Positions 4,791 through 29,393 of a stretch of 34,617 bases of DNA are shown one piece after another. A program made the translations under genes and the position numbers. The first letter of the stretch is position 1; the number at the start of each line of letters is the position of its first letter. The stretch is from a virus. Location of the stretch: IMG/VR virus record IMGVR_UViG_3300035126_000270, positions 1 to 34,617 of that record. One strand, written 5' to 3'. The notes under the pieces were generated by a model that did no database searches, was not told where the DNA came from, and saw nothing but the letters and a program-made list of their open reading frames with translations.

Positions 4791-4801
4791 GACGAAAGAA
4801 A

Positions 4802-4833: not shown

Positions 4834-4919
4834 CGTTCCGGGGGCAAAGTTCGGGAGCCGTCCGTGGCTTCCCGTTGTCAGTCGCGGCGCCGAACAGGCA
4901 ACAAGCCTGGGGCATCCCG

Positions 4920-4949
4920 GCGACACAACCGACGAGGAGATGATATACT
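4920..4949 (+). promoter_or_regulatory. Extended -10 promoter for the replication-type genes
   Basis: TATACT at 4944-4949 is preceded by TGA (4941-4943), giving an extended -10 (TGn). GCGACA at 4920-4925 matches four of six -35 positions, with an 18-base spacer. The predicted start at about 4956-4957 coincides with the first base of the leader's 12-bp stem. This is the best sigma70-type promoter near the replication-type genes. Confidence 0.6.
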
Positions 4950-4956
4950 GCGCGCA

Positions 4957-5036: not shown

Positions 5037-5050
5037 TGTTGGAGTTCACG

Positions 5051-5566: not shown

Positions 5567-5577
5567 CGAGGACGAAC

Positions 5578-6024
5578 ATGGACGCCATCTCATGGATTGA
5601 CAACAAGAAACTCATGGTCGAACTCTGGCCGGGATGGAAGCCGTCCCAGGCCGAGGCCAACCTCCTGAACCGGCGCTGGGGACAGCTGCACCAGGACAAG
5701 CTGCGCGACTGCATCGAGCAGCACCGCCTCGAGCGAGACAAGGTGCCGGACCTCTCGAGCATCCACAAGGCGTACTGCAAGGTGACTTCGGCCAACAACG
5801 CCAGCAGCGAGGGCATCAACGAGGTGCAGCGCACGCGCCGCGAACACCTCGACTGCCAGCCGCCGCCGGCCCACGAACTCGCCGAATGGGAGGCAGACGC
5901 CGAGCGCATCCTCGCCACGGCTAGCCCGCACGAGATCGCCGCCGCGCAGGAGCGGATGGGCCTGCACGTCACGCAGCGGCGCATCATCGCGCTCATGGTC
6001 GAATGGTGCCGGCAGAACCCTTGA
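5578..6024 (+). CDS. Possible helicase-loader-like replication accessory protein (148 aa)
   Basis: A 148-residue helical protein starting 11 bases after the DUF1376 gene, with an ACGAGGA ribosome-binding site. Its N-terminal third (KKLMVELWPGWKPSQAEANL, about residues 10-29, then a helix and PDLSSIHKAY at about 57-66) resembles the pattern seen in phage helicase-loader/G39P-type N-domains: hydrophobic-W-P-x-W-x-P, a helix pair, a cluster of basic residues, then P-x-hydrophobic-x-x-I. The second half is a long amphipathic helical region. Position after a DUF1376 gene fits a replication accessory role such as recruiting the host helicase. This is inference from pattern and position, not a firm family call. 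Confidence 0.75.
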   Translation: MDAISWIDNKKLMVELWPGWKPSQAEANLLNRRWGQLHQDKLRDCIEQHRLERDKVPDLSSIHKAYCKVTSANNASSEGINEVQRTRREHLDCQPPPAHELAEWEADAERILATASPHEIAAAQERMGLHVTQRRIIALMVEWCRQNP

Positions 6025-6049
6025 CCGCGCCTACGAGGGCGTATACGAT
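6021..6049 (+). promoter_or_regulatory. Sigma70-type promoter TTGACC-N17-TACGAT
   Basis: TTGACC (6021-6026) matches five of six -35 bases and is followed after exactly 17 bases by TACGAT (6044-6049). The -35 overlaps the stop codon of the preceding gene. The expected start is near 6056, and a small GGCGGC/GCCGCC hairpin (6059-6075) would lie at the 5' end of the message for the gene at 6104. Confidence 0.6.
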
Positions 6050-6103
6050 CCACGCCAAGGCGGCGAGGTGCCGCCGATCTGAAACATCACCAAGGAGATT
6101 GAC

Positions 6104-6685
6104 ATGTGGTACGTGATTGCATGGCGCGACCAACACGACAGCACGATGACGCTCGACGTCCCTGGCTTTGAGAAGTGGTGCGATGACAACGCTTCCGTCC
6201 TGTCATCACGCATTAACTTCGGCCTGTGCCACGGGAACAGAATCACGCCAGAGCTGCTGATTGACACGTGGAACCTGAAGTGGCCCGGGACCGTCGCCTT
6301 CCGCTGGAACTCGCGCATGGGCGCAATCGAGTGCGACACGCTCGAGTTCGGCGCCCGCGTCGAGGTGCTGCCCGAGCGCATGGCACCGCACCTCGAGCTG
6401 ATGGACCCCGAGGATGACGAATGGTGGTGGTGGCACGGCGTTGACGCCAAAGGCACGCCGCAGTTCAGGATTGTCCTTGCCGTCCAGCAGCACGAACACG
6501 TCGGCGAAGCACGGCAGTCAGCGGAGAGGCTCATCGAGGACATGCACAACAAGGTCGAAGACTACGACACCCAGGAGTGGGCAAGCGAAAGCCGAAGCCT
6601 GCGCCGGCACTACGACGATTTCAGGAATTGGGTGATCTCGCAGACCCAGCACAACCCGCCCGACCCCGAGCGCGAACCCGCCTGA
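6104..6685 (+). CDS. Hypothetical protein (193 aa)
   Basis: No family recognised. The start at ATG 6104 is supported by AAGGAG (6091-6096) seven bases upstream. The protein is soluble and acidic with an unusual run of four tryptophans (DDEWWWWHG, about residues 104-112) and a helical, charged C-terminal third. The N-terminus (MWYVIAWRD) reads like a first beta strand. It stands alone between a promoter on its left (6021-6049) and a terminator-like hairpin on its right (6707-6743), so it is probably a separate transcription unit of an accessory gene. Confidence 0.75.
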   Translation: MWYVIAWRDQHDSTMTLDVPGFEKWCDDNASVLSSRINFGLCHGNRITPELLIDTWNLKWPGTVAFRWNSRMGAIECDTLEFGARVEVLPERMAPHLELMDPEDDEWWWWHGVDAKGTPQFRIVLAVQQHEHVGEARQSAERLIEDMHNKVEDYDTQEWASESRSLRRHYDDFRNWVISQTQHNPPDPEREPA

Positions 6686-6706
6686 CCGACAACCTCCGCA
6701 ACATTC

Positions 6707-6743
6707 GCAGACCCCGTGAGCAAATCATGTTCGCGGGGTCTGC
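6707..6743 (+). terminator. Intrinsic terminator-like hairpin
   Basis: GCAGACCCCG (6707-6716) pairs perfectly with CGGGGTCTGC (6734-6743) around a 17-nt loop. It lies 21 bases after the stop at 6685. The following CTCTGT is only weakly U-rich, so termination may be partial. Confidence 0.55.
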
Positions 6744-6748
6744 CTCTG

Positions 6749-6754
6749 TAGACT
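6749..6754 (+). promoter_or_regulatory. -10-like box TAGACT, 7 nt before an ATG (leaderless type)
   Basis: TAGACT directly follows the hairpin at 6707-6743 and precedes the ATG at 6762 by seven bases. No Shine-Dalgarno is visible. No good -35 is seen, since the hairpin occupies that place. Confidence 0.35.
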
Positions 6755-6761
6755 TCCACGC

Positions 6762-7043
6762 ATGGCACGGCGGAAAAAGTGCATGCCAATCCTCCTCGCG
6801 GGACTTGACGATTGCCTCCTCGGCAAGGTCTACCCGCTCCCCAACGAGGAGGGAATCCCCGTTGCGCTGTACTCCGGCGACATGATCGCAGCCCGCATCC
6901 GCGACCAGGAACACCTCTCGCACGCCGAAGCACTCGCGTTCGTCACCGACCGCATCGAACTCAACTACCTCGGACCAGGCACCCCGCGCATTTGCTGGGC
7001 AGCAACCTCCGAAGATTTCGGCGAGATCGTCAATTCCAAGTGA
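6762..7043 (+). CDS. Hypothetical protein (93 aa) upstream of a small HTH-like protein
   Basis: A 93-residue protein with no recognised family. The start at 6762 lacks a ribosome-binding site and follows a -10-like box by seven bases; ATG 6783 (MPILLAGLDD) is an alternative. It has a basic N-terminus, a short alpha/beta core and a C-terminal segment (YLGPGTPRICWAATSEDF). It ends 13 bases before the start of a small helical, DNA-binding-type protein. The pairing and size recall toxin-antitoxin pairs, but no toxin motif is visible, so no function is assigned. Confidence 0.65.
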   Translation: MARRKKCMPILLAGLDDCLLGKVYPLPNEEGIPVALYSGDMIAARIRDQEHLSHAEALAFVTDRIELNYLGPGTPRICWAATSEDFGEIVNSK

Positions 7044-7049
7044 TATGCT
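7041..7049 (+). promoter_or_regulatory. Extended -10 box TGATATGCT, 7 nt before an ATG (leaderless type)
   Basis: TGATATGCT (extended -10 with TATGCT at 7044-7049) overlaps the stop of the preceding gene and ends seven bases before ATG 7057. It closely matches TGATATACT at 4941-4949. Transcription would start at about 7056-7057, on the start codon itself. Confidence 0.5.
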
Positions 7050-7056
7050 CGGCCGT

Positions 7057-7302
7057 ATGCAGATTCGTTGCTACGACGATTTCAAGCGCGCCATCACCGA
7101 AGCAGTCGCCAGCCGCGGAAGCACGCGCTCCGCGCTCGCCAACGACATGGACAGCAAGGGAATCCTCCGCGCCCACACCGTCAAGAGCCTGCTCGGTTCG
7201 CCCGGTACCGTCATCGGGCGCCGAAAGCCCGCATTCGACTCCATCCTGAAGATCGCACATGCAGCAGGATTCAACCTCACCCTCACCCCGAAGGAACCGT
7301 GA
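7057..7302 (+). CDS. Small HTH-like regulatory protein (81 aa)
   Basis: The start is set at ATG 7057 (MQIRCYDDF); an in-frame ATG at 7045 would overlap the promoter-like box. The 81-residue protein is helical: DDFKRAITEAVASRGSTRSA, a central segment with HTVKSLLGSPGTV, and FDSILKIAHAAGFNLTLTP at the end. That ending (x-I-A-x-A-x-G-F-x-L-x-L-T) is typical of small XRE-like or antitoxin-like helix-turn-helix proteins in phages and plasmids. It therefore may bind DNA; the classical HTH is not perfect, and the target is unknown. No ribosome-binding site is present, consistent with a leaderless message. Confidence 0.7.
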   Translation: MQIRCYDDFKRAITEAVASRGSTRSALANDMDSKGILRAHTVKSLLGSPGTVIGRRKPAFDSILKIAHAAGFNLTLTPKEP

Positions 7303-7451
7303 TGCCAAGCAAGTCGCCGGCGCAGAAGCGCCTCATGCAGGCAGCAGCTCACAGCCGCTCGTTCGCCGCAAAGGTCGGAGTACCCATGTCGGTAGCCAAG
7401 AAGTTCGTCCGCGCCGACAAGGCAAAGGCAGCGAAGCGCCGAAAGAAGTGA
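7302..7451 (+). CDS. Small conserved phage protein (49 aa)
   Basis: ATG 7302 overlaps the preceding stop (TGATG). The product begins MPSKSPAQKRLMQAAAH, continues SRSFAAKVGVPMSVAKKF and ends in a Lys/Arg-rich tail. I recognise this as a widespread small phage protein, commonly next to terminase or head genes, with the motif P-S-K-S-x-x-Q-x-x-L-M-x-A-A-A-H and S-V-x-K-x-F-V-x-A-D-K. Its function is unknown. AAGGAACC (7291-7298) may act as a weak ribosome-binding site. Confidence 0.8.
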   Translation: MPSKSPAQKRLMQAAAHSRSFAAKVGVPMSVAKKFVRADKAKAAKRRKK

Positions 7452-7849
7452 AGCGCAAGTTTGGGCGGCCGCCGGAAATGACGCAAGCACTTGTGAATGA
7501 ACTCGTTGCGTGGATTTCGGAAGGCAAGCCCATGCGAGAGTGGTGCAGACTTCCGGGCAAGCCGCACTTCACTACGGTGTACGACTGGATGGACCGGGAC
7601 GAGGGACTTTCCCTACGCATCGCACGCGCCCGCGAGGAAGGCTACGACGAACTCGCCGACAAGTGCCTGCGGATTGCGTTTGATCCGTGCCAAGACCAGG
7701 TCGAGGTCACGCAGCGCAGGCTGCAGGTTGACACCATCCTCAAGCTCCTCGCGAAGTGGAACCCCAAGAAGTACGGTGACAGGCAGGCCGTCGCCCACGA
7801 GGGCGGCGTGATCCTGAACGTCATCACCGGCGTCCCGCATGCGGACTGA
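7448..7849 (+). CDS. Terminase small subunit-like protein
   Basis: 133 residues starting at GTG 7448, overlapping the previous stop by four bases (GTGA); ATG 7480 is an alternative. The N-terminal region carries KRKFGRPPEMTQALVNELVA and a helix-turn-helix-like stretch ending HFTTVYDWMDRDEGL (about residues 37-51), the pattern of terminase small-subunit-like proteins that bind packaging-site DNA. RIARAREEGYDELADKCLRI follows, typical of the same group. It overlaps the large subunit gene by 11 bases. It would recognise the concatemer and recruit the large subunit. The assignment rests on motif and position and is good. Confidence 0.87.
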   Translation: MKRKFGRPPEMTQALVNELVAWISEGKPMREWCRLPGKPHFTTVYDWMDRDEGLSLRIARAREEGYDELADKCLRIAFDPCQDQVEVTQRRLQVDTILKLLAKWNPKKYGDRQAVAHEGGVILNVITGVPHAD

Positions 7850-9164
7850 AACCGTTCGGATCGGATACGAGCCGCGGCCATGGCAGCGGCGATGCCACCT
7901 CGAGCGCAAGCGGTTCACTGTCCTCGCCCTGCACCGCCGTGCCGGCAAGACCGAGCTGGCGCTCATGGAACTGCTCCACCAGACGGCGAGGTTCAAGGAG
8001 CCGCTCGGCCTGTTCGTCTACGTGGCCCCCTTGCTCAAGCAGGCCAAGGCCATCGCCTGGGCGCGCCTGAAACAGAAGCTCGACCCGTTCCTGCGTACTG
8101 CCGCCGTGGACATCAACGAGGCAGACCTGTCCGTCACCTTCAAGCACAACAAGGCGACCATCCGCCTGTTCGGCGGCGACAACCCGGACGCCCTGCGCGG
8201 CGTTCGCCTCGACGGGTGCGTCATTGACGAGGTCGCCCAGATCAAGCCCGAGGTCTGGCAGGACATCCTGCAGCCGGCCCTGTCCGACCGCCGCGGCTGG
8301 GCCATGTTCATCGGGACGCCCAACGGCCTGAACCTGTTCAGCGAGCTGTTCTACCGCGCCTCGAGCCTCCCTGACTGGTGGGCCGCCCGATATACCGTTC
8401 ACGACACGGACGCCCTGGACGAGGACGAGGTCGCCCGCCTCAAGCGCGACATGCCCGAGCAGGCATTCGCTCGAGAGTATCTGTGCGACTTCGCCGCCGC
8501 CGGCGAGGACCAGCTCATCAGCCTGACCGATGCCACGGCCGCCGCCGAGCGCAAGATCGCGGACGGCGACGTCATTGAATCCCCGCTCGTGGTCGGCGTG
8601 GACCCGGCCCGGTTCGGCGATGACCGCAGCGTCATCGTGCTGCGGCAGGGGCTGAGGATGGAGCCGCCGCAGGTGTTCACCGGGATCGACAACATGACCC
8701 TGGCCTCGGCCGTCGCCAACGTCATCGAGGACCGCGACCCGGACGCCGTGTTCATTGACAGCGGCGCGGGCGCCGGCGTCATCGACCGACTGCGCCAGCT
8801 CGGCTACGACGTGATCGAGGTGCCGTTCGGCGGCAAGGCCACGAACCCGAACCTGTTCGTCAACAAGCGGACGGAAATGTGGTGGAGCGTCAAGGAATGG
8901 CTCGACATGGGCGGCTGCCTCCCCGACCGCACCGACCTGACGGCTGAACTGTCAACGCCAACCTACTGGTACGACGCGGTCGGCCGGCGGTGCCTTGAGT
9001 CGAAGGATGACATCAAGAAACGGCTGCAGGGCGGCGGCAGCCCGGACATCGCCGATGCCCTTGCGTTGACGTTCGCGTATCCCGTTGCCAAGCAATTGCC
9101 ACGCGAGGTGCGCGAGCGACTGTCGCCGCGCCAGCGCGACTACGACCCATACGAGGAAGTCTGA
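7839..9164 (+). CDS. Terminase large subunit (packaging ATPase/nuclease)
   Basis: A 441-residue protein with complete terminase motifs: Walker A RRAGKT (33-38), Walker B GCVIDE (126-131, catalytic Glu131), a coupling-type GTPNG (159-163), and an RNase H-like nuclease with Asp255 (VGVDPARFGDD), Asp307 (FIDSGAGAG) and acidic residues near 403-406 (SPDIADAL). It translocates DNA into the procapsid and cuts the concatemer, docking on the portal. The length is normal for podovirus large subunits. It overlaps the small subunit gene by 11 bases and shares a TGATG junction with the next gene. High confidence. Confidence 0.97.
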   Translation: MRTETVRIGYEPRPWQRRCHLERKRFTVLALHRRAGKTELALMELLHQTARFKEPLGLFVYVAPLLKQAKAIAWARLKQKLDPFLRTAAVDINEADLSVTFKHNKATIRLFGGDNPDALRGVRLDGCVIDEVAQIKPEVWQDILQPALSDRRGWAMFIGTPNGLNLFSELFYRASSLPDWWAARYTVHDTDALDEDEVARLKRDMPEQAFAREYLCDFAAAGEDQLISLTDATAAAERKIADGDVIESPLVVGVDPARFGDDRSVIVLRQGLRMEPPQVFTGIDNMTLASAVANVIEDRDPDAVFIDSGAGAGVIDRLRQLGYDVIEVPFGGKATNPNLFVNKRTEMWWSVKEWLDMGGCLPDRTDLTAELSTPTYWYDAVGRRCLESKDDIKKRLQGGGSPDIADALALTFAYPVAKQLPREVRERLSPRQRDYDPYEEV

Positions 9165-9613
9165 TGTCAATTCGCAGGGCGACCGTCGATGACCTGGACG
9201 CAATCGTTGACATGGGCCAGCGGTTCATCGCCTTCGGCCCGCACGGCAAGTACGTGACGGCCGACCGTGAGCAGCTCCGCGCCGGCGTGGCTGCGTTCCT
9301 GCAGGTCGGCGCGTGGTTCCTCGCCGAGATCGACGGCAGGACGGTGGGGATGCTTGCCTGCGCGGTCGCGCCGATGTGGTTCGCGCCGCACATCCTGGTC
9401 GCGCACGAACTGGCGTGGTGGGTTGACGAGGAGGCCCGCGGCTCGAGCGCGGCGATCCGGTTGGTGCGCGCATACGAGGAGTGGGCGCACGAGCAAGGCG
9501 CGCACGTGGTCGCGATGTCGCAACTCGTCGCGGAGAACGGGGAGCAGGTTGGTAGGATGCTGCGAAAGCTCGGGTACGAGCCGAGCGAGATGACCTACGT
9601 AAAGGGAGGCTAG
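9164..9613 (+). CDS. GNAT-family N-acetyltransferase
   Basis: A 149-residue protein beginning IRRATVDDLDAIVDM, a classic GNAT start. The core strand region ILVAHELAWWVDEEARG (about 88-104) contains the acetyl-CoA-binding-type beta4 strand and loop, followed by SSAAIRLVRAYEEWA and the C-terminal MLRKLGYEPSEMTYVKGG. The family transfers an acetyl group from acetyl-CoA to an amine; the phage substrate is unknown. It is inserted between terminase and portal genes with a TGATG junction, so it is expressed late. Phages quite often carry such an enzyme here, possibly to modify a host or virion protein. Confidence 0.88.
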   Translation: MSIRRATVDDLDAIVDMGQRFIAFGPHGKYVTADREQLRAGVAAFLQVGAWFLAEIDGRTVGMLACAVAPMWFAPHILVAHELAWWVDEEARGSSAAIRLVRAYEEWAHEQGAHVVAMSQLVAENGEQVGRMLRKLGYEPSEMTYVKGG

Positions 9614-10003
9614 ATGCCATTCTTCGCAGCACTCGGCACCGCTCTCGGTGCATCGGCGGCAGCGGCAGGGACTGTTGGTGCGCTTGCCACGGCGGGACTC
9701 GCGGCCACCGGCGCCGGACTCGGGTACACGATCTCGAGCGGCGAGGCTGGCAAGAAGGCCCAGAGCGAGGCCATGCGGCAGCAGGCCGCAGCGCAGCAGC
9801 AGCAGGTCGCGCAGGCCGCCATGCAGCAGCGCCGCAGCGAGCAGGCCATCGCAGGCGCACAGCGCCGCGAGCCGAACGTGCAGGCCATCATGGCGAGCGC
9901 GCAGGAGGCCGCAGGCGGCCCGTCCAGCACCATGCTCACCGGGCCGATGGGCGTGAACCCCGCCGACCTGCAGCTCGGACGATCCACCCTCCTCGGGGGC
10001 TGA
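9614..10003 (+). CDS. Small membrane-associated or virion-type protein (129 aa)
   Basis: The start codon directly follows the previous stop, with GGGAGG (9604-9609) as ribosome-binding site. Residues 1-40 are Ala/Gly-rich and hydrophobic, enough for one or two membrane segments. Residues about 48-85 are Gln/Ala-rich and probably coiled coil. The end reads TMLTGPMGVNPADLQLGRST then LLGG, a tail I recognise from small podovirus proteins located beside the portal. Its role may be as a minor virion or ejection-associated protein; this is inference. Confidence 0.8.
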   Translation: MPFFAALGTALGASAAAAGTVGALATAGLAATGAGLGYTISSGEAGKKAQSEAMRQQAAAQQQQVAQAAMQQRRSEQAIAGAQRREPNVQAIMASAQEAAGGPSSTMLTGPMGVNPADLQLGRSTLLGG

Positions 10004-10004
10004 C

Positions 10005-11717
10005 ATGAGCGAATACACAGGCGACAACCGTTCCTACCCGGACGCTCCCACGAGGGATCGCCTGTTCACGCGCTGGGGTCAGCTCAAGAGCGAGCGCGCA
10101 TCGTGGATGGCGCACTGGCAGGAGATCACCTCCTACCTCCTCCCGCGCAACGGCCGCTACTTCCGCGAGGACCGCAACCGCGGCTATCGCCGGCACAACA
10201 ACATCTACGACAACACCGGGACGCGGGCGCTCCGCACGCTCGGCGCCGGCCTGATGTCAGGTGCCACGTCACCCGCACGGCAGTGGTTCCGCCTCGCCAC
10301 GCCCGACCCCGAGCTGAACTCGTACCAGCCCGTCAAGCTCTGGCTCGATGACGTCACCAAGCGCATGCAGCGAGTGTTCCAGAAGTCGAACACCTACCGC
10401 TCCCTGCACCTGATGTACGAGGAACTCGGCGCGTTCGGGACGGCCTCGAGCATCGTGCTTCCCGACTTCGACCAGGTCATCCACCACTATCCGCTCACGG
10501 CCGGCGAGTACTGCATCTCGACCGACGCGCAGGGCCGCGTCTGCACGTTGTACCGCGAGTTCGACATGACCGTGTCGCAGCTCGTCAAGGAGTTCGGCCT
10601 CGAGAACTGCTCGACGTCCGTGCGGAACATGTACGAGACAGGCACGCTCGACACGTGGGTTCCGGTCGTGCATGCCATTGAGCCGCGCATGGACCGCGAC
10701 ATCACGAAGCGCGATGACAGGAACATGCCCTACGGGTCGTGGTACTTCGAGGTCGGCGGCGAGCAGGACAAGTTCCTGCGCGAGAGCGGTTTCATGTACT
10801 TCCCCGCGCTCTGCCCGCGCTGGTCGGTGGTCGGCGGCGACATCTACGGGAACAGCCCCGGCATGGAGGCGCTCGGCGACGTCAAGCAGCTCCAGCACGA
10901 GCAGCTCCGCAAGGCGCAGGCCATCGACTACCAGACGAAGCCGCCGCTGCAGGTGCCGACCTCGATGAAGAACCGGGACGTCGATTCGCTCCCGGGCGGG
11001 ATCACCTACGTCGATCCGGCCGGCAACGGCATCCGCAGCGCCTTCGACGTCAACCTGCGGCTCGACTACCTGCTGCAGGACATACAGGACTGCCGCGGCC
11101 GCGTCAGCGGCGCGTTCTACGCCGACCTGTTCCTGATGCTGGCGACCGCGCCCAACACGCGCATGACCGCCACAGAGGTCGCCGAGCGCCACGAGGAGAA
11201 GCTCCTGATGCTCGGCCCGGTCCTCGAGCGCCTGCACAACGAGCTGCTCGACCCGCTCATTGACATCACCTTCAACCGCATGATCCAGTCAGGGGTGCTG
11301 CCGCCCGCGCCCGAGGAACTGCAGGGCATGGACCTGAACGTCGAGTTCGTGTCAATGCTGGCGCAGGCGCAGCGCGCCATCGGGACGAACGCCGTTGACA
11401 GGTTCGTCGGCAACCTCGGCGCCATCGCGCAGATGAAGCCCGACATCCTCGACAAGTTCGATGCCGACCAGTGGGCCGACATCTACGCGGACATGCTCGG
11501 CGTGGACCCGTCGCTCATCGTCGCCGACAAGGAGGTCGCGCTGGTGCGCCAGACGCGCAACCAGGCGATGGCGACCAAGGAGCAGGCGGCCGCGATGCAG
11601 CAGCAGTCGCAGACCGTCAAGAACATGGCGCAGGCGCCGACCGGCGGCAACAACGCCCTGACCGACGTGATGAACATGTTCAGCGGCTACGGATCTCCGT
11701 CAGCCGTCGAAGTCTGA
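10005..11717 (+). CDS. Portal / head-to-tail connecting protein (T7 gp8-like)
   Basis: A 570-residue protein of the head-tail connector family (Head-tail_con type). The N-terminal region has the usual RWGQLKSERASWMAHWQEIT, YLLPRNGRYF and ALRTLGAGLMSGATSPARQW motifs; the middle contains EFDMTVSQLVKEFG and GDIYGNSPGMEALGDVKQLQ, and the stem region ends in TRMTATEVAERHEEKLLMLG. The C-terminus is Gln/Ala-rich. It forms the dodecameric channel at one capsid vertex through which DNA enters and leaves. The length is slightly above T7 gp8 (536). It starts two bases after the previous stop. High confidence. Confidence 0.96.
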   Translation: MSEYTGDNRSYPDAPTRDRLFTRWGQLKSERASWMAHWQEITSYLLPRNGRYFREDRNRGYRRHNNIYDNTGTRALRTLGAGLMSGATSPARQWFRLATPDPELNSYQPVKLWLDDVTKRMQRVFQKSNTYRSLHLMYEELGAFGTASSIVLPDFDQVIHHYPLTAGEYCISTDAQGRVCTLYREFDMTVSQLVKEFGLENCSTSVRNMYETGTLDTWVPVVHAIEPRMDRDITKRDDRNMPYGSWYFEVGGEQDKFLRESGFMYFPALCPRWSVVGGDIYGNSPGMEALGDVKQLQHEQLRKAQAIDYQTKPPLQVPTSMKNRDVDSLPGGITYVDPAGNGIRSAFDVNLRLDYLLQDIQDCRGRVSGAFYADLFLMLATAPNTRMTATEVAERHEEKLLMLGPVLERLHNELLDPLIDITFNRMIQSGVLPPAPEELQGMDLNVEFVSMLAQAQRAIGTNAVDRFVGNLGAIAQMKPDILDKFDADQWADIYADMLGVDPSLIVADKEVALVRQTRNQAMATKEQAAAMQQQSQTVKNMAQAPTGGNNALTDVMNMFSGYGSPSAVEV

Positions 11718-12080: not shown

Positions 12081-12428
12081 GTGAGCAACTATGACCCGCT
12101 CGACCTGCGGGGCCAGGAGAAGGCGAAGGCGCAGCGCGACCTCCGCGAACGACTGGACCGCGACAACGAGGAGGGCGACGTCAAGTGGCTCATGGGCAAC
12201 AAGAGGGGCCGCAGGGTCATCTGGCGGCTCCTCGACGCTGCCGGCATCTTCCGCTCGTCGTTCAACACCAACGCGATGGCAATGGCCTTCGCCGAGGGGA
12301 ACAGGAACTACGGGCTTCGGATGCTCGCAATCGTCCACGCCCAGTGTCCCGAGCTGTATCCAGTGATGATGAAGGAGAACACGAATGACAGAACCATCGA
12401 TGGTGGAAGCGGCAGCAACGACCACTAA
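12081..12428 (+). CDS. Bbp19-like phage protein (115 aa)
   Basis: Starts at GTG 12081 without a ribosome-binding site, six bases after a TAGGAT box. The helical sequence includes GRRVIWRLLDAAGIF, SSFNTNAMAMAFAEGNRNYG and LRMLAIVHAQCPELY, matching the Bbp19 family named after Bordetella phage BPP-1, whose members lie just before the scaffold gene. The function in the virion is not established to my knowledge. Its 3' end overlaps the scaffold gene by 44 bases, which implies coupled translation. Confidence 0.85.
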   Translation: MSNYDPLDLRGQEKAKAQRDLRERLDRDNEEGDVKWLMGNKRGRRVIWRLLDAAGIFRSSFNTNAMAMAFAEGNRNYGLRMLAIVHAQCPELYPVMMKENTNDRTIDGGSGSNDH

Positions 12429-13077
12429 TGCCGCCCCGTCATCTTCGGCCCCTGCAAGCACCTCGGCGACGGCCGAGAAGCTCTACGGGGACGGGCAGAA
12501 GCCGACTGCGACCCAGGAGCCGCAAGCCGCCAAGGCGGCCGCTGCGGAAACCGTCGCGGGCGACCAGCCGGCAGCCGAACCCGAGGCCAAGGCCGAGGTG
12601 AAGGCAGCGCCGGAGAAGTACGAGTTCAAGGTTCCCGAAGGCAAGCAGTTCGATGCCGAGGTCTTGACCACGTACTCCGAGGTCGCACGCGAACTCAACC
12701 TGTCGCAGGAGGCCGCGCAGCGTGTCCTCGACGCCATGGCACCCAAGATGGCCGAGCGTCAGATGGCACAGATCGAGGCGGTTCGCACGGGATGGGCCGA
12801 GTCATCGAAGGGTGACAAGGAGTTCGGCGGCGAGAAGCTGCCGGAGAACCTTTCCGTCGCGAAGAAGGCGCTCGATGCGTTCGGCACGACCGAACTCCGC
12901 TCTCTGCTCAACGAGTCTGGCCTGGGGAACCACCCGGAGGTGATCCGGTTCATGTTCCGCGCAGGCAAGGCAATCAGTGAGGATCGGATGGTCACTGGAA
13001 CGAAGGGTGCGGCGAAGCCCGCCGGCCCGCGCTCGTTCAATGACTTCGCCGATGCTCTGTACGCAAGTCAGTCCTAA
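12385..13077 (+). CDS. Capsid scaffolding protein
   Basis: A 230-residue protein with AAGGAG (12372-12377) seven bases before its ATG. Residues 1-75 are Ala/Ser/Thr/Pro/Glu-rich and disordered; the rest is charged and helical (EVARELNLSQEAAQRVLDAM, MAERQMAQIEAVRTGW). This is the usual build of podovirus scaffold proteins, and it lies immediately before the major capsid gene as in BPP-1 and T7. It should guide procapsid assembly and then leave. No protease motif is visible. Confidence 0.87.
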   Translation: MTEPSMVEAAATTTNAAPSSSAPASTSATAEKLYGDGQKPTATQEPQAAKAAAAETVAGDQPAAEPEAKAEVKAAPEKYEFKVPEGKQFDAEVLTTYSEVARELNLSQEAAQRVLDAMAPKMAERQMAQIEAVRTGWAESSKGDKEFGGEKLPENLSVAKKALDAFGTTELRSLLNESGLGNHPEVIRFMFRAGKAISEDRMVTGTKGAAKPAGPRSFNDFADALYASQS

Positions 13078-20822: not shown

Positions 20823-23800
20823 TTGATCGAGCAGGACATCAACGAGCGCATGGCCGGAATCGCACCCTCGCAGAACGTGGGTGAAGATCCGGCGATCCTC
20901 GCCATCAAGCGCAACCGCGGGATGCTTCTCCCCACGGAGAACCAGGCGCCGATGTCCGACGTCGCCCAGCCGACCGTTGAACTTCCGCAGGAACCCGACT
21001 ATGCGGCCCGAGCCATCCTTGAGGATCGCCGGAACCGGATGATGTCATCGGTCTACACGGCGTCCAAGGTGGACCCGGAGCGGGCAGCGAAGGCGCAGAA
21101 GCTCTCGGCAGAGACAGGTATCGGGAGCGGTATCGCGCTGCGGCATCTTGACGAGATGATGGTCGATGCGCGGATGCGGGAGATCGAGCGCAAGAACTAC
21201 TTCGCCGAGAACCATGTCCTCGCCAACAGCCTGTCGGACCCCGAGTTCGCGGCGGTCGCGCAGGATGACCTCGGCACGCTCGACAGGATCGGCGGGTTCT
21301 TCGGCGAGTTGGCGATGTTCAGCAGGTACGGGTTCAGCCCAAGCACGCTGAAGGGAACCGCACGCGGCATGGCGATGGTCGAGCGCGGGCAGATCGGCGC
21401 GGCGGCCGCAGCCGCTCTTGCCACGCCGCAGGACATCGACCGTGCCGAGCAGTTGCGGCAGGACATGACCAAGCTCCAGGGCGGCGGCCTGCTCGCTGCC
21501 ACGGCCGAGGTCGTGACCCAGCAGATCGCGAACCTGAAGCAGACCGCAACGATGGCCGCCGGCGGCGCAGCGGTCGGCAGTGCGGTCCCTGGCGTCGGCA
21601 CGGTTGCCGGCGGTGCGCTCGGCTTCGCGGCCGGGACGATCACCTCGACGGCGCAGATGGAGGGCGGAAACGCCTACCTCGACATGCGCGCCGATGGCGT
21701 GCCTGATGACGTCGCGATCCCCGCCGCCATCGCCATTGGCTTCCTGAACGGCGCCATTGAGGTGTACGGCCTGAAGCTCGCGGCATCGCCGTTCAAGGGT
21801 CTTGCCAAGAAGGCCATGGCCGAGGCGACTGCGGAGGCGCTTGCCAAGCCGAGCGTCCGGTCGGCGCTTGCCATCGCTGGCAAGGAATACGTCAAGCAGG
21901 TCGGCGGCGAGGGCGTCGAGGAGGCGCTGCAGCAGACCGTGTCCGTGATCGGCGACCGAATCGCCAAGGCCGCATCGGGCATGGAGTACGAGGGGTCGCT
22001 CAAGAAGGATCTCGGCCAGATCATCGAGTCGTTCGGACAGGGCGCGCTGGCGTCGGTGCTGCTCGGCGGCATCGGCCCGGGCGCGAACCTCGTCTACGAC
22101 CTGAACCGCGCCGAGGCCGCGGTCGGGACGCAGCAGTTCCTGCAGAACCTCACGACCGCCGTCAAGGAAGGCACGCTCAAGCCGCGAAGCCCCATGATGC
22201 TCGAGCGGTACATCCAGGCGCAGGCCGAGCGGTACGGGGTCGGTGACTTCTACATCGCAGGCACGGTGATGCGCGATGTCATCAATGCCAGCGGCATCAC
22301 TCCTGAGCAGCTCGAGCAGGTGCTTCCCGGCATGGGAGGGCAGGTGCGCGGCGCGCTGCTGAACAACGGCGACGTGAACCTGACTCCCGGCCAGTACGCG
22401 GCGACGATTGCCGGCACGAAGTTCGGCGATGCCCTGATGCCGCACATCCGCGTCGGCGACCCGCGTGCGGTCAGCTACGCGCAGGCGCAGCAGATCAACG
22501 CCAACCGCGAGCAGATGCGCGAGGATGCCACGAAGATCATCGGGGAGATGGAGCGGACGGACACGGCATTCGTGGAGTCGGCGCGGAACGTGGAGAACGC
22601 ATACCGCGACCAGATCGAGCGGACGGGCCGGCCGCGTGAGGAGGCAGAGGCGGCTGCCACGTTCGTGCGCGATTTCTACGTGGTCCTCGGAGCGTCCATG
22701 GGACAGACGCCTGAGCAGGTGCAGCAGCGGTTCCCGTACCGATTCGAGGGGCAGGCAGCGGCGGTCGCTGAACCGCTCGAGCAGGCGGCTCGCCAAAAAT
22801 ATCCGTCACTTGCCAAGGCGTGGGATCGTTACAACAGCGGCGAAATCTTGATGACGATTGGGGATTTGGCTGACAAAATTGACAGTTTGGATCTTGCAGG
22901 AAAGCGCATTCCGCAGTCCGTGCTTGATGCTGTGCAAGAGTTCCGTAACGCGCAACGTGAGGAACGCGAGGTTTATGGCGAACGCGGTGGAACAGAAGAT
23001 GATGCTGGAAACGCTTTGGAAATTGCAGTTCAGAACGCTGCAGAACAGCTGCGCGAAGCATCGCCCAACATCATGGAGCAGGCGGCGACGATGGACGCCG
23101 AGTACATGGCCGCCGTCGAGCGCGGCGACATGGACGCGGCGCAGCGCATGGTGGACGAGGCGGCGAAGGCGGCTGGGTACAACGTTGTCGCGTATCACGG
23201 AACGGATGCAGAGCCATTCACAATCTTTGGCGATTACGACTCTTACTATTGGGGGAAGGCATCGTATTTCTCCCCAAATCGTGAATACGCCGAAATGTAT
23301 TCATACGAAAGGACTGGCAAGGGTTTCTCACGGGTAATGAGGGTCAACTTGAAACTCGGCCGCGTGTTCTCTCCAGAAACAAATCCAGAACACCTGGCGA
23401 TGTATCGCAAATGGACGAGGGAACAGCGCAAGAGTGGAAGAGGAGGCCCGTTCTTTGTTGGCGGCCCAATGAAGGGGAAGTATGGCCCAGACAAAGTAAA
23501 AAATGTCATTGATTATGAGGATCAGTGGTGGCTTGTTGGACGCATTTGGGATGCTGGATTTGATGCATTTACGACATCAGAATCTGATGGACAAACAATC
23601 GCGTGGGGATTGAAAAATCCAAATCAAGTAAAGCTCGCCGACCCCGTCACCTACGACGAGGCCGGCAACGTCGTCCCGCTCTCGCGCCGCTTCGACATCA
23701 CCAGCCCGAGGATCTTCGAGCAGGCGGCGGTGCCGGCACAAGCGGGAGCTGATGCTCCAGGCATTGGAGTTTCCAACGAGAACAGGCTCGGATTTTGGCC

Positions 23801-26800
23801 GGCATTGCGAGTGCGAATCCAGCCTAATGCCGCACTACCTGAAAAGCCGCTGATCCTGACAGGAACGACTAACAAGAATGCGACCAAGCAACTTGCGAAT
23901 CTTGATGACATTCTTGGTCGGTTTCCAAATGCAGCAGAGTCTCCTGAAGCATGGGCGCAAATGTTGGCATATGCGTTTGGAACTGATGATGTTCCGGTTC
24001 CGCCGTATGCGTTCATCAACGACACAAACGGAAATGGGTCGTTTGATCGCCTGTCAACGCTGACGCAAGGACAGATCGCTGATGCCACGCATGGTTTCGA
24101 CAACGCCCGCGAGTTCCGCAGGGCGTACATCAACAACGAACTGGATGTAATCACCACCGGGAAACTGTTCCTGTGGTCGTTCCTGTCGCGTGGTGTCAGC
24201 CCGTACACGCAGGAATCGCTGTTCATTGATGCATTCGATGGTGCAAACGAGTGGATCAAGAAGGCTGCTTCCGGCAAGTTCACGGAAGCCGATTTCGATG
24301 ACTACACGGCGTGGGCAAAGTCAGTCGCAAAGAAGGGAAGCGGCCAGCCAGGAGCAGGGGCAACCCACAACCTGAATGCCTTCGGTAAGAACTTCCTGTT
24401 CAAGATGGGCGCAATCGGCGAGGACGGGAAGTCCAACCTTCAGCGACTGCACGACATGATGTCAGACCCGGAGCAGACGGGCCGCATGATCCGCAGGGAG
24501 TTTGCAAAGTTTGGCGAAGGCGTCGGAATTGACAACAAGGTCGTTTCGTTCACGCTGTTGGTCGCCGGGTTCAACGACGTGATGGTGCTTGACCGCGTGC
24601 AGGTTCGCCAGCTCTGGGATGACGGACGATTCAGCGGCACAAACCTGTATGACGGTGTGATGGATGCAGAAGGGCAAAAGATCGCCGGATCGTCGCTGAA
24701 TGCACTGACGGAAGGCGTTCGCGGAATCCTCGTCTATGAGGCCATTGAGCGACAGCTCGCCGCCAAAATCAATGACCTGTACGCGAAGCTTGGCCGGCCG
24801 CAGGACGCGAGCATCGGACGGTATCACTGGGAAACATGGGTCGCATACAGCCAGCAGGAAGCAGCCCACGCAACATTGGATGCCATCCTGCTTGATGCCA
24901 AGGGAGATGACCAGGCAATCTCCAAGGTGTCCGGTAAGCAAGGGGAATACGGCGCCTACGAATATGGGGCGCAATACAACCGCGACACGAATAAGACTCC
25001 GTGGTTCAGGTATACGACGCCGCTCGGCGGAACGTATGATTTCAGCGTCCCGGCGTTCAGGCAGTTCCTGGCGGAAATCAAGAAGGTTGGCAACGGCGTC
25101 GTGCCGGCCAAGTTCAAGGTAACGGAGAGTGGCAATGCCCCGTGGTACACGCGCCCAGAAGTCAACCAGCAGCGACTCGAAGAGCAGGCCGCAAAGTGGT
25201 CCGACCGAGGCGGCGGCACGGGAGAAGGAACGCGCCTTGTTCGGCAGGCTGCTGCGAACGCCGATGCCATTCGTGCAAGATCCGGCACCGGAGTTCAACC
25301 CGCAGGACGGGGTGCGGGCTTAGAGCAGGCAGCCCGAGGCCCAGCCCGAGGCTTCATCGACCCCAAGACCCTGATCGCGACGATCACGCAGGGCGGCGAC
25401 CTCGCGACCCTGATCCACGAGTCGGCGCACGCCTTCCTCGTCATCTACGGGCGAATCGCCCAGCAGCCCGACGCGCCGGCGTTCATCAAGGCAGACATGG
25501 ACACCGTGCTGCGCTGGGGCAACGTCCCGGGCGACACGCCGGAGGCGCGCCTCGCGACATGGTCGAACATGACCGTGGACGAGCAGCGCACGCTGCACGA
25601 GTCGTTTGCATACAACTTTGAGATTTATGCATGGGAAGGGAAGGCGCCGAGCGCCGAGCTGCGCGGCGTGTTCCAGCGGTTCCGCGCATACCTGACCCGG
25701 ATCTACAAGTCGATCCGCGATGACCTGAACGCCATCTACCGCCGCGAGTTCGGGACGGACCTGCCGATTCTCACCCCGGAGGTCCGGGCCGTGATGGACC
25801 GCATGCTCGCGAGCGAGCGCCAGATCAAGCAGTACCAGGCTATCAACTCCATGGCGCCCTACTTCCAGACGCAGGAGGAGGCGCAGATGGACGATGCCAC
25901 GTGGGCCGCCTACGTGGCGATGAACCAGGAGGCCGAGGACCAGGCAATCGCCGACCTGACGAAGGCGAGTCTGGGGCAGGTGGACTGGATTCGCCGTGCG
26001 CGGATCTCGGCCGAGCGCGAGGAGGAGCGCGGCATGGCCGCCCGCCGGCGCGAGGTCAAGGACGAGGCAACGCAGGAGGTGCGCGGCCGGCTCGTCTACC
26101 GCCTGCAGGACTACCTGCGGACGGGCCGCTACCGCGACGAGGCCGGGGAGGAGATCACGGTCGAGGGGCCGCACAGGCTGTCCGTGGACCGCATCGAGGC
26201 GCTGTACACGGGCATCCCCACGGCCGAGTCGGTGGAGGCCATCCGTGCCACGGGCATGGCCGTGCCGGCCGTCCTGCAGCCCGAGTGGCGCAGGCTCGGG
26301 TTCGGGAAGTCCGGGATGCTCGTCAAGGAGGGCGGCGTGGACCCCGAGATGGTCGCCGAGACCTTTGGCTATCCCGGCGGCGATGCCATGATCCGGGCGC
26401 TGGTCGATGCCCCGAAGTTCTCGGAGGCCGTGGAGGCCCGCACCAACGAGCTGATGCAGGAACGCTACGGGGAGATGGACTCGCCCGAGGCACGCGAGCA
26501 GCGGATCTCCGAGGCCATCCACAACGAGGCCCGAGCGCGGTTGGTGGCCGTGGAACTGCGGCACGTTTCCCGCGCCACGGAACCCGTGGCCGTCATGCTC
26601 GAGGCCGCCAGAATCGCCGCGCAGGACATCCTCGCCCGCAAGCGCCTGCGCGACATCCGCCCGCAGGACCACGAGGCAGCTGAGGCGCGGGCGGCACGGG
26701 ACGCCATCAACGCCCGCCGAGCCGCCGGCAACCCGGCCGCCGCTGCCCAGGCCGCCTACACGCGGGCCAAGAACGCCGTCCTGGAGGCGCCCCGCGAGGA

Positions 26801-29393
26801 CACGGTCGAGGCGCTGCTCGCGGCCACGGATGCCGCTGAGGTCGCCGGAGAGGCCGCACGGGCCGAATCCATGGCACGGTCAGCCGAGCGCATCGGTCGC
26901 TTCGTGGAAGAGTACGGCAACGTCCAGCCAGACCTGCTGGTAATCCGCGCCAAGCGGGCGCAGCTCTACCAGAACCAGCTTGCCGCCGAGGCGCGCAAGG
27001 CGAAGGCATACGTGGAGAAGCAGGTCAAGTACCTGCGGAAGGTGCTTCGCGACGAGAACCGCAAGCGGATGGGCGCGGGGTACGCGGACCAGATTGAGGC
27101 GCTGCTCGCGAACGTCAACCTGGTCGCCATGTCGGCGGCGCAGCGGCAGCAGCTTGCCGACCTGGGTGAATGGCTGAAGAAGATGGAGGCTGACGGCGTC
27201 AAGCCCGACATCTCCGAGGATCTCGCCAAGGCAGCGTTCCGCGTCCCCTACAAGGACTTGACGCTCGACCAGTTCCGCGAGTTGGTGGAGGCCGTGCGGA
27301 CCATTGAGTACATGGGCAAGAACGAGCAGAAGGTGCTGCTCGAGAAGCAGAAGGCCGAGTTCAAGGAGAAGGAAGCGGCCATCGTCAAGAACGCGGAGGC
27401 GGTCGCACGGTCGCGTGGCCGCATCGAGAAGCTGCGCCGATCCGGCCAGACGAGGGCGGCGAAGGCGTCTGCCAAGCTGAGAGGATTCTTCGCGGCTGGG
27501 CTGAAGGCATGGGCCATCGTGGAGGTCATCGACGGCGGCCCGGGCGGCCCGCTGTGGGAGTACCTGATCCGCACGGCCAACGACCGCGCCGACATGGAAA
27601 CGGAGATGAACGCGGCGGCCACGAAGCGGCTGACCGAGATCCTCGAGCCGTGGTACAGGGTCGGCAACATGATGGCCGGCAAGGTCGAGTTCCCGTCCAT
27701 CGGTCGGTCGATGACGCGGGAGGCGCGGCTTGCCATCGCCCTGAACTACGGCAACGCCGGCAACATCCAGCGCCTGCTCGACGGCGAGGGCTGGACGCAG
27801 GAGCAGGTGCAGCCCATCCTCGAGTCGCTGACGGCCGAGGAGTGGGACGCTGTGCAGCAGGTGTGGGACTTCATGGACGAGTACCGCCCGCTGATCGCGG
27901 CCAAGGAGCGCAAGCTCTTCGGCAAGGAACCGAACTGGGTCGAGCCGCAGGAGCTGACCGTGCGGACGGTGGACGGCAAGGTAAAGACGCTGCTCGGCGG
28001 CTACTACCCCATCGTCTACGACCCGGTCGCCGCGTTCCGGTCGGAGAAGCAGAGCGAGGTTGACACGGCCGAGGCGCAGCTCAAGGGCGCGTTCACGGCC
28101 GCCACGACCAGGCGCACGTTCACGAAGGAGCGCGCCGCCAAGGTCGAGGACAGGCCGCTGCTGTACAGCCTGCAGGGACTTTGGAGCGGAGTGACGGACG
28201 TCATCCACGACCTGTCCTGGCACGAGTGGCTGATCGACGCGAACCGCCTGATGCGGAGCGAGGAGTTCGACCGGGTCGTTCGCGCCCGCTACGGCGAGCA
28301 GCCGAAGCTCGAGCTGCGCCGCTGGATCGAGGACGTCGCCGCCGGCGGTCGCGGTGCGCTGACACCCGGCATGATGGCCGCGGCATTCATGCGGCAGAAC
28401 GTGAGCGTGGCGGGACTTGGGTACTCCATCCGCGGTGCGCTCCTACAGCTCACGGGTTTCTCGATGTCAGTCACCCGGGTCGGCTGGGGTCCGCTGCTGC
28501 GCGGAATCAGCGCGTTCGCCGTCAACCCGCTCCAGACCATGCGGCGTGTCAACGACATGAGCAAGTTCATGGAGATGCGCTCGAGGACGCAGTTCAAGGA
28601 ACTGAATGAGATCCGCAACCGCGTCGAGGGCCAGCGCGGCTGGGAGCGCGGCATCCGCTCGCACGCATACACCATGATGCTGTCAATGCAGCGGCTCGTT
28701 GACATCCCGACATGGCTGGCCGGGTACGAGAACGCAATCGCAGACGGCAAGGACGAGGACACGGCAATCGCTCTCGCCGACCAGGGCGTGATCGCCACGC
28801 AGGGCAGCGGCCTCCTCAAGGATCTGTCCCGCGTCGAGCGTGAGAAGGGGCTTGCCAGCCTGTTCACCGTGTTCTACTCGTACTTCAACACGGTGTTCAA
28901 CCTCGCCACGGTGCAGACGATGACGGCCCGCAGCAGGGGCAAGGCGGCCCACGACCTGCTGATGATCCTCGTCGTGCCTGTCATGGTCGAGCAGCTCCTC
29001 AAGGAAGTCCTCACCCCGGACGGCGAGGACAAGGAGGAGAAGGATCTCGGCAAGGTCGCGGCGCAATTGACACGCGCCGAGGTTGAGTACCTGCTCGGGA
29101 TGTTCGTGTACGTGCGCGAGCTGCAGGGCGTGTCGGGCATGATTGACGGCGGCATGCGCGGATACGAGGGTCCGGCCGGCCTGCGAGGGATCGTGACGAT
29201 CCAGCGTGCCGCGCAGCAGGCAGGGCAGGGCGAGTTCGACCGCGGCTTCCGCCGCTCGGCCGTGGACCTGCTCGGCATCGGCCTGGGCCTGCCGAGCGCG
29301 CAGATCAACCGCACCATCGACGGCCTTGAGGCGCTGTCGGAGGGAGAGACTGAGAATCCGCTTTCCGCCGTGATGGGCGTTCAGCGAAGGTAG
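20823..29393 (+). CDS. Giant polyvalent ejection protein (2856 aa) with ART-, HhH-glycosylase- and zincin-like domains
   Basis: Starts at TTG 20823 with AGGAG (20811-20815) seven bases upstream; ATG 20850 is less well supported. Order of regions: helical N-terminus with a Gly/Ala hydrophobic stretch (about 221-300); helical region to about 780; an ADP-ribosyltransferase-like domain (about 786-960; VAYHGTD with His792, then YFSPNREYAEMYS and NPNQVK); a domain (about 985-1455) with a helix-hairpin-helix glycosylase-like signature, Lys1239 and Asp1257; a zincin domain with HESAH (1532-1536) and HESFAYNFEIYAWEGKAPS near 1590; long coiled coils to about 2230; and a C-terminal ejection-type region with a hydrophobic segment (LLMILVVPVMVEQLL, about 2710). 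EQAA linkers separate the middle domains, two of which lie in lower-GC DNA. It is probably packed in the virion and delivered with DNA, as T7 gp16 is; the domain activities are inferred. Confidence 0.93.
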   Translation: MIEQDINERMAGIAPSQNVGEDPAILAIKRNRGMLLPTENQAPMSDVAQPTVELPQEPDYAARAILEDRRNRMMSSVYTASKVDPERAAKAQKLSAETGIGSGIALRHLDEMMVDARMREIERKNYFAENHVLANSLSDPEFAAVAQDDLGTLDRIGGFFGELAMFSRYGFSPSTLKGTARGMAMVERGQIGAAAAAALATPQDIDRAEQLRQDMTKLQGGGLLAATAEVVTQQIANLKQTATMAAGGAAVGSAVPGVGTVAGGALGFAAGTITSTAQMEGGNAYLDMRADGVPDDVAIPAAIAIGFLNGAIEVYGLKLAASPFKGLAKKAMAEATAEALAKPSVRSALAIAGKEYVKQVGGEGVEEALQQTVSVIGDRIAKAASGMEYEGSLKKDLGQIIESFGQGALASVLLGGIGPGANLVYDLNRAEAAVGTQQFLQNLTTAVKEGTLKPRSPMMLERYIQAQAERYGVGDFYIAGTVMRDVINASGITPEQLEQVLPGMGGQVRGALLNNGDVNLTPGQYAATIAGTKFGDALMPHIRVGDPRAVSYAQAQQINANREQMREDATKIIGEMERTDTAFVESARNVENAYRDQIERTGRPREEAEAAATFVRDFYVVLGASMGQTPEQVQQRFPYRFEGQAAAVAEPLEQAARQKYPSLAKAWDRYNSGEILMTIGDLADKIDSLDLAGKRIPQSVLDAVQEFRNAQREEREVYGERGGTEDDAGNALEIAVQNAAEQLREASPNIMEQAATMDAEYMAAVERGDMDAAQRMVDEAAKAAGYNVVAYHGTDAEPFTIFGDYDSYYWGKASYFSPNREYAEMYSYERTGKGFSRVMRVNLKLGRVFSPETNPEHLAMYRKWTREQRKSGRGGPFFVGGPMKGKYGPDKVKNVIDYEDQWWLVGRIWDAGFDAFTTSESDGQTIAWGLKNPNQVKLADPVTYDEAGNVVPLSRRFDITSPRIFEQAAVPAQAGADAPGIGVSNENRLGFWPALRVRIQPNAALPEKPLILTGTTNKNATKQLANLDDILGRFPNAAESPEAWAQMLAYAFGTDDVPVPPYAFINDTNGNGSFDRLSTLTQGQIADATHGFDNAREFRRAYINNELDVITTGKLFLWSFLSRGVSPYTQESLFIDAFDGANEWIKKAASGKFTEADFDDYTAWAKSVAKKGSGQPGAGATHNLNAFGKNFLFKMGAIGEDGKSNLQRLHDMMSDPEQTGRMIRREFAKFGEGVGIDNKVVSFTLLVAGFNDVMVLDRVQVRQLWDDGRFSGTNLYDGVMDAEGQKIAGSSLNALTEGVRGILVYEAIERQLAAKINDLYAKLGRPQDASIGRYHWETWVAYSQQEAAHATLDAILLDAKGDDQAISKVSGKQGEYGAYEYGAQYNRDTNKTPWFRYTTPLGGTYDFSVPAFRQFLAEIKKVGNGVVPAKFKVTESGNAPWYTRPEVNQQRLEEQAAKWSDRGGGTGEGTRLVRQAAANADAIRARSGTGVQPAGRGAGLEQAARGPARGFIDPKTLIATITQGGDLATLIHESAHAFLVIYGRIAQQPDAPAFIKADMDTVLRWGNVPGDTPEARLATWSNMTVDEQRTLHESFAYNFEIYAWEGKAPSAELRGVFQRFRAYLTRIYKSIRDDLNAIYRREFGTDLPILTPEVRAVMDRMLASERQIKQYQAINSMAPYFQTQEEAQMDDATWAAYVAMNQEAEDQAIADLTKASLGQVDWIRRARISAEREEERGMAARRREVKDEATQEVRGRLVYRLQDYLRTGRYRDEAGEEITVEGPHRLSVDRIEALYTGIPTAESVEAIRATGMAVPAVLQPEWRRLGFGKSGMLVKEGGVDPEMVAETFGYPGGDAMIRALVDAPKFSEAVEARTNELMQERYGEMDSPEAREQRISEAIHNEARARLVAVELRHVSRATEPVAVMLEAARIAAQDILARKRLRDIRPQDHEAAEARAARDAINARRAAGNPAAAAQAAYTRAKNAVLEAPREDTVEALLAATDAAEVAGEAARAESMARSAERIGRFVEEYGNVQPDLLVIRAKRAQLYQNQLAAEARKAKAYVEKQVKYLRKVLRDENRKRMGAGYADQIEALLANVNLVAMSAAQRQQLADLGEWLKKMEADGVKPDISEDLAKAAFRVPYKDLTLDQFRELVEAVRTIEYMGKNEQKVLLEKQKAEFKEKEAAIVKNAEAVARSRGRIEKLRRSGQTRAAKASAKLRGFFAAGLKAWAIVEVIDGGPGGPLWEYLIRTANDRADMETEMNAAATKRLTEILEPWYRVGNMMAGKVEFPSIGRSMTREARLAIALNYGNAGNIQRLLDGEGWTQEQVQPILESLTAEEWDAVQQVWDFMDEYRPLIAAKERKLFGKEPNWVEPQELTVRTVDGKVKTLLGGYYPIVYDPVAAFRSEKQSEVDTAEAQLKGAFTAATTRRTFTKERAAKVEDRPLLYSLQGLWSGVTDVIHDLSWHEWLIDANRLMRSEEFDRVVRARYGEQPKLELRRWIEDVAAGGRGALTPGMMAAAFMRQNVSVAGLGYSIRGALLQLTGFSMSVTRVGWGPLLRGISAFAVNPLQTMRRVNDMSKFMEMRSRTQFKELNEIRNRVEGQRGWERGIRSHAYTMMLSMQRLVDIPTWLAGYENAIADGKDEDTAIALADQGVIATQGSGLLKDLSRVEREKGLASLFTVFYSYFNTVFNLATVQTMTARSRGKAAHDLLMILVVPVMVEQLLKEVLTPDGEDKEEKDLGKVAAQLTRAEVEYLLGMFVYVRELQGVSGMIDGGMRGYEGPAGLRGIVTIQRAAQQAGQGEFDRGFRRSAVDLLGIGLGLPSAQINRTIDGLEALSEGETENPLSAVMGVQRR
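22779..25333 (+). repeat. Five dispersed copies of a GAGCAGGCGGC linker sequence
   Basis: Within the giant gene the 11-mer GAGCAGGCGGC occurs identically at 22779-22789, 23076-23086 and 23718-23728, with one-base variants at 25182-25192 and 25323-25333. Each encodes the EQAA of a hydrophobic/charged-EQAA linker (PLEQAAR, IMEQAAT, IFEQAAV, LEEQAAK, LEQAARG) at a domain boundary. Confidence 0.7.

Follow-up and report, generated by a model that had tools for sequence, protein, structure and literature searches.

The giant gene and its cassettes

The window, the whole 34617-base stretch of DNA analyzed here, is an IMG/VR virus record with the gene order of a podovirus of the BPP-1/epsilon15 type (terminase, head-tail connector, GP7-type capsid protein, nozzle-like tail protein, endolysin-like protein, giant open reading frame (ORF), tail spike and tail genes). 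The giant ORF, in the structural module between the endolysin-like gene and a tail gene, encodes a relative of Bbp10 of Bordetella phage BPP-1 (41% identity by tblastn, with half of the query covered), and its C-terminal part matches phrog_9880 at 1146.5 bits, which places it among the Bbp10-like proteins. Relatives of the giant protein were detected in 42 GenBank records, including Caulobacter, Xanthomonas, Pseudomonas, Vibrio and other phages. With LPD22, an ADP-ribosyltransferase (ART) domain of the ART-PolyVal type, an Ogg-like fold (in domain U) and an HExxH domain, the protein exceeds the two effector or associated domains per chain that define a polyvalent protein. It is probably a virion protein that is ejected and delivered into the host. 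The scaffold consists of the N-terminal part, the metallopeptidase and the long C-terminal part, and the cassettes are exchangeable. The features are collected in Table 1.

Two assignments bear on what follows. For the ART domain, PF18760 matched the translation of 23061-23760 with 31.4 bits (E 3.8e-07), just above the gathering cut-off of 31.2, and the whole giant protein with 26.1 bits, under the cut-off. In the metallopeptidase region, the giant protein is homologous to the BPP-1 protein (locus L008) and has kept HExxH, making it a member of the CLCA_X family with predicted peptidase activity.

Table 1. Features of the giant gene, in window coordinates
Feature	Position	Strand	Remarks
Giant ORF	20823..29393	+	2856 amino acids (aa), TTG start; Bbp10-like polyvalent protein; tblastn to BPP-1 bbp10, phrog_9880
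LPD22, large polyvalent protein associated domain	21054..21308	+	Pfam PF18834, E 3.6e-11
Linker 1, LEQAA	22776..22790	+	
First low-GC segment, 94 aa	22791..23072	+	GC at third codon positions (GC3) 0.489
Linker 2, MEQAA	23073..23087	+	Onset of DNA identity with L001
GC-rich arm 1, N-terminal hairpin of ART cassette	23088..23183	+	Nearly identical in L001; 23062-23181 95% DNA identity; GC3 0.973 (23073-23183)
ADP-ribosyltransferase core (ART-PolyVal)	23184..23621	+	PF18760; GC3 0.479; differs in L001
GC-rich arm 2, C-terminal strand of ART	23622..23714	+	Nearly identical in L001
Linker 3, FEQAA	23715..23729	+	
Domain U	23745..25244 (aa 975-1474)	+	Model residues 97-375 (24033-24869) predicted to have archaeal 8-oxoguanine DNA glycosylase (HhH-GPD) fold
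Predicted catalytic Lys of domain U (aa 1239)	24537..24539	+	Invariant 37/37; aligned with GIGYK of MjOgg
Predicted catalytic Asp of domain U (aa 1257)	24591..24593	+	Invariant 37/37; aligned with AIIDRH of MjOgg
EEQAA inside predicted helix of domain U	25179..25193	+	Not a linker
Linker 5, LEQAA, few residues before metallopeptidase	25320..25334	+	Exchange border with L001 and L002
CLCA_X-type zincin metallopeptidase	25344..25530, end approximate	+	Start ARGFIDP; HESAH 25416-25430 (aa 1532)
Conserved C-terminal part, phrog_9880	26943..29372	+	Common to Bbp10-like carriers

EQAA linkers and base composition

The sequence-only reading had described five near-identical EQAA linkers at domain borders. 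EQAA does occur five times in the giant frame (nucleotides (nt) 22779, 23076, 23718, 25182 and 25323, corresponding to aa 653, 752, 966, 1454 and 1501), and none of 5000 shuffled versions of the protein had four or more copies. Three copies are the same over 11 bases and the remaining two deviate at wobble positions. Four of the five stand at domain borders, but the copy at 25182 (LEEQAAKW) is not a linker, because it sits within a helix of the third domain that is predicted with confidence (model residues 475-485). A fourth exact copy of the 11-mer, GAGCAGGCGGC, is found at window position 11580 in the head-tail connector gene (KEQAAAM), where it probably occurs by chance.

The low-GC segments were also said to be separated by GC-rich pieces around the linkers, and a contrast in GC3 is evident, with values of 0.87 before linker 1, 0.49 for 22791-23072, 0.97 for 23073-23183, 0.48 for 23184-23621, 0.88 for 23622-23744, 0.66 for 23745-25151, 0.57 for 25152-25319 and 0.905 after linker 5. 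The shift coincides with linkers 1, 2 and 5; for the ART core, however, it lies ~95 bases inside linkers 2 and 3. Such low GC3 is unusual but not unique to these segments, as the minimum elsewhere in the window, including other genes, was 0.34-0.48 depending on the size of the averaging interval (ten stretches compared). In relatives too, the ART core of L001 and the cassettes of L002 are GC-poorer than their own flanks. The Pfam scan returned no match for the first low-GC segment (22791-23072), which corresponds to no known family.

Cassettes are exchanged between related phages

Comparison with two relatives revealed that cassettes have been swapped between related phages. The DNA of the window is ~98% identical to that of L002 up to 22642 and from 25321, with an unrelated block between. 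The L001 protein is ~50% identical overall, and two DNA blocks, 23062-23181 (95%) and 23625-25352 (90%), stand out from much more divergent flanks. By sliding identity, the blocks shared with L001 extend from linker 2 to linker 5, with a different ART core between them, while the unrelated L002 block has its right end at linker 5 and its left drop from ~22530, ~250 nt before linker 1. Of six junctions mapped, three thus fall on linkers, two within the ART domain (~95 nt inside the linkers) and one upstream. In L002, aa ~665-1740 replace the cassettes of the window with a domain that by eye is ART-like and ends in NIMEQAA, plus a stretch of ~900 aa; the Pfam scan gave no match in this replacement block.

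The linkers had been suggested to serve as recombination points. Domain exchange is borne out by the L001 and L002 blocks, but a role for the 11-base DNA itself as a recombination signal is not supported and was rejected in view of the 34 different DNA spellings of EQAA linkers across 136 contexts, and the homology that is shared takes the form of arms of ~120 nt. The linkers are conserved at the protein level, not the DNA level.

A Gln motif precedes the metallopeptidase

Linker 5 belongs to a wider pattern in Bbp10-like proteins. Within the 26 residues before the metallopeptidase, a hydrophobic-x-Gln motif was present in 68 of 73 distinct contexts versus a fraction of 0.344 of control windows. 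Hydrophobic-x-Glu was found in the same place in 27/73 (control 0.396), and there was no enrichment across the 73 contexts when Glu, Asp, Asn, Lys, Arg, Ser or Thr was placed in the Gln position; Pro was slightly enriched (29/73 versus 0.300). In a larger set of 158 non-redundant relatives, the Gln motif stood before the metallopeptidase in 149 (control 0.474). With the Gln taken as P1, P3 among 152 contexts was Leu in 84, Phe in 30 and Tyr in 19, and P1´ was Gly in 62 and Ala in 34 (together 96/152). The distance from motif to metallopeptidase was mostly 3 to 22 residues, and the sequences upstream were unrelated.

Relatives were also sampled by the C-terminal part alone, taking 80 of at least 563 viral loci together with 43 genome loci, which gave 99 non-redundant ORFs. 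HExxH was present in all 91 with the peptidase in view, and the motif in 88 of these 91. Among the other eight, six are the first segment of a locus cut by its edge, and L244 and L303 are split genes; for L244 the other half of the split gene holds the peptidase, with TFNQ before it. The L244 gene (~4695-11700) is Bbp10-like and divided over two frames, with domains kept in each half.

In BPP-1 (L008) the motif reads FYQ. Phages fetched by name share the motif, with the exception of L007; among those that have it is a phage with an assigned methanogen host, where it reads RFQ. The phage of L177 is assigned to Methanomicrobiales and encodes a Bbp10-like protein that has HExxH; if this host assignment is right, the family extends to viruses of archaea. 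The sequence-only reading had pointed to an LxQ-A pattern before effector domains of polyvalent proteins. The pattern is real in Bbp10-like carriers and is not general across polyvalent proteins.

The border motif depends on the carrier rather than the cassette

Given that the same domain families occur in chains with and without the metallopeptidase, the motif could be followed at the same borders in different carriers. For the end of the ART domain we used PLSxRF as a landmark and scored the next 14 residues. Hydrophobic-x-Gln followed in 50 of 50 distinct contexts from carriers with the metallopeptidase, typically as DITSPKLFEQAA, versus 3/28 in complete carriers without it (all three also S-type, for example DIRYSQ) and 3/29 in truncated ORFs. 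The ART end in other carriers reads DIRYS, DIRFS, SILYS, DIRRM or DIRYM, and carriers without the metallopeptidase often have ends of the Arg/Lys-Phe/Tyr-Ser type. At the ART start the motif was found in 18/18 contexts with the metallopeptidase versus 7/49 without, and before domain U in 20/20 with versus 9/18 without. The domain U of L004 is 62% identical, but its flanks are KFSP and AFSP, and the copies in L004, L353, L357, L395 and L407 are flanked by KFS-, QFS-, RYS- or KYS/KYA-type motifs. A further domain ends in PLFQ in 25 of 28 rows from Bbp10-like proteins (the other three were caught elsewhere or not resolved), and in PLFA and PAFK in two other phages. The motif belongs to the carrier: elsewhere, these domain families are bordered by different motifs.

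Trees of the cassettes point the same way. On the ART tree, built by a quick method, the Q label changes 12 times; the ART cores of the window and L001 are far apart, yet arms and linker are common to both. On the domain U tree the carrier label changes 5 times, and the motif is present in 21/21 rows with the peptidase.

A second border motif, [RKQ][FY]S[RLI], was seen in L353, L357, L395, L407 and L004 as well as in ART loci including L117, L136 and L154. The CLCA_X peptidase was not found in these carriers, among which L395, L004 and L154 are truncated.

We also mapped the ends of homology between proteins by all-against-all BLAST, without reference to the motif, filtering out collinear gaps and keeping starts backed by at least 8 relatives. 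In Bbp10-like proteins, hydrophobic-x-Gln-[AGS] was 5.7-fold enriched in the 10 residues before such starts, and in other carriers [KRA][FY]S was 11.3-fold enriched at such starts (9 hits).

Domain U is predicted to resemble archaeal Ogg

The Pfam scan gave no match for domain U. An AlphaFold (AF2) model built with 37 homologues reached a predicted local distance difference test (pLDDT) score of 91.7, versus 53.9 with five sequences. The model aligned with MjOgg (3knt) over 204/207 residues with Z 14.7 and a root-mean-square deviation of 2.9 A, ahead of human OGG1 (Z ~10). The predicted HhH-GPD fold spans the whole domain of the solved enzyme, with a weak sequence match (E 0.014) and a Foldseek E of 0.03. 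The invariant Lys and Asp of domain U align with residues of MjOgg that we take to be catalytic in that glycosylase, as expected of an Ogg2-type enzyme. On this model, domain U would be an injected base-excision enzyme.

Proposed self-processing

These observations suggest that the polyvalent, probably ejected protein of this BPP-1-like podovirus is a polyprotein and that its border motif is a putative cut site of its own CLCA_X zincin, a reading to which we assign a rough probability of 0.58. Hydrophobic-x-Gln, followed mostly by Gly or Ala, would be the cleavage site; the zincin of the same chain would cut after the Gln, during assembly or after ejection, and the ADP-ribosyltransferase and glycosylase-like domains could thereby be freed to act in the host. 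An incoming cassette would have to end in the motif of its carrier, and this requirement would account for the location of junctions at most linkers or ~95 nt inside them. Protease-processing sites had been one suggestion made for the linkers at the outset, and it gains indirect support from the Gln specificity of the motif, its presence at non-homologous borders and its dependence on the carrier.

Several points weigh against self-processing. Virion proteomics of a Bbp10-like protein was not found in the literature searched, including the available passages of PMC3974807 and PMC9239159. According to passages of PMC5512222, the virion RNA polymerase of N4 contains such a metallopeptidase domain and is packaged uncut. 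Pro, next to which cutting is unlikely, occupies P1´ in 13/152 contexts, and the motif is missing in 9/158 relatives and in L268, L279, L282 and L007. A carrier in which the metallopeptidase is dead was not among the 99 C-terminal sequences, and the dependence of the motif on the peptidase is therefore presumed. These carriers share descent, and the counts are not independent: the well-supported branches force only 1 change on the quick-method ART tree and at least 2 on the domain U tree. In wide windows around domain U, carriers without the peptidase had hydrophobic-x-Gln in 13/26 contexts before and 14/26 after the domain, about half being the chance level. Without the metallopeptidase border, the enrichment at homology starts was just 1.5- to 2.1-fold, and three of the six mapped junctions lay off any linker.

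The motif might instead be cut by another protease, encoded separately by the phage or supplied by the host and encountered in assembly or entry, which we regard as unlikely. Known phage head proteases use similarly built sites: the prohead protease gp245 of SPN3US cuts after A-x-E (PMC10052503, in part) and gp23 of phage P1 is cut after Glu (PMC9024508, in part). The window itself has an ORF before the capsid gene (12385-13077) that matches phrog_458, labelled protease. This ORF has no Pfam peptidase family and by eye resembles a scaffolding protein, and we rejected it as a capsid-maturation protease. That RFQ also occurs in the phage assigned to a methanogen host speaks against a single host protease, and the motif tracks the metallopeptidase.

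Somewhat more doubtful still is that the linkers are mere recombination seams, with conserved cassette ends carried along by exchange and no processing. Exchange is demonstrated, some junctions are on linkers and the ART arms are conserved over ~120 nt; against this, the linkers are spelled in many ways in DNA, the motif precedes the metallopeptidase at a short distance despite unrelated upstream sequences, and other carriers end the same domain differently. It is very improbable that the motif binds something and thereby serves in docking or packaging, guiding the domains into the head or through the tail. Short signals do occur in ejected proteins (in phage P1, packaging of DarB is directed by its first 30 residues; PMC9024508, in part), but the motif stands between domains at several borders per chain with just two or three fixed positions, and its Gln specificity would be typical of a P1 residue.

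Relation to known systems

Human CLCA1 cuts itself, and the 3C-like proteases of RNA viruses process polyproteins at Leu/Phe-x-Gln before Gly/Ala, between separately acting domains. The borders described here are like 3C-like sites in having Leu/Phe-x-Gln and then Gly or Ala; unlike in those systems, no chymotrypsin-like protease was seen here and the candidate is a zincin. As in the sites at which giant-phage prohead proteases such as SPN3US gp245 cut head proteins, P3 and P1 are fixed, but here P1 is Gln, the sites are between effector domains and the candidate enzyme is of a different class.

Neither the protein family nor the idea of self-processing is new. The giant protein is like the polyvalent proteins of phages and conjugative elements in its size and in combining LPD22, ART-PolyVal and a zincin metallopeptidase, and autoproteolysis by the metallopeptidases of such proteins has been proposed (Iyer et al. 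2017; PMC5512222, in part). In the passages of that paper brought up by term searches, no linker or inter-domain motif was found. The CLCA_X family of zincins was seeded with residues 700-1000 of Bbp10 of BPP-1 (PMC3650047); the window shares both this domain and the protein family, with HExxH kept, and the available passages of that paper assign no cleavage sites. The Gln border motif, its carrier dialects and the Ogg-like cassette are additions to PMC5512222 as far as its passages go, and were not found in the literature searched, including the accessible parts of PMC5512222 and PMC9503650.

We tentatively extend the proposal, with less confidence than for the Bbp10-like protein itself, to ejected polyvalent proteins as self-cutting polyproteins with a site code. 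Carrier lineages would have dialects, and a cassette changing lineage would have to change its terminal motif to be released. From sequence comparison, the proposed dialects are hydrophobic-x-Gln with the CLCA_X zincin and Arg/Lys-Phe/Tyr-Ser in other carriers. A border motif that switches with the carrier makes testable the question of whether polyvalent proteins act whole or cut, open since their description, and permits them to be parsed into effector units from sequence alone. If self-processing is correct, one delivered chain would give rise to several separate weapons, including a DNA glycosylase-like enzyme, and would be a phage counterpart of the polyproteins of RNA viruses.

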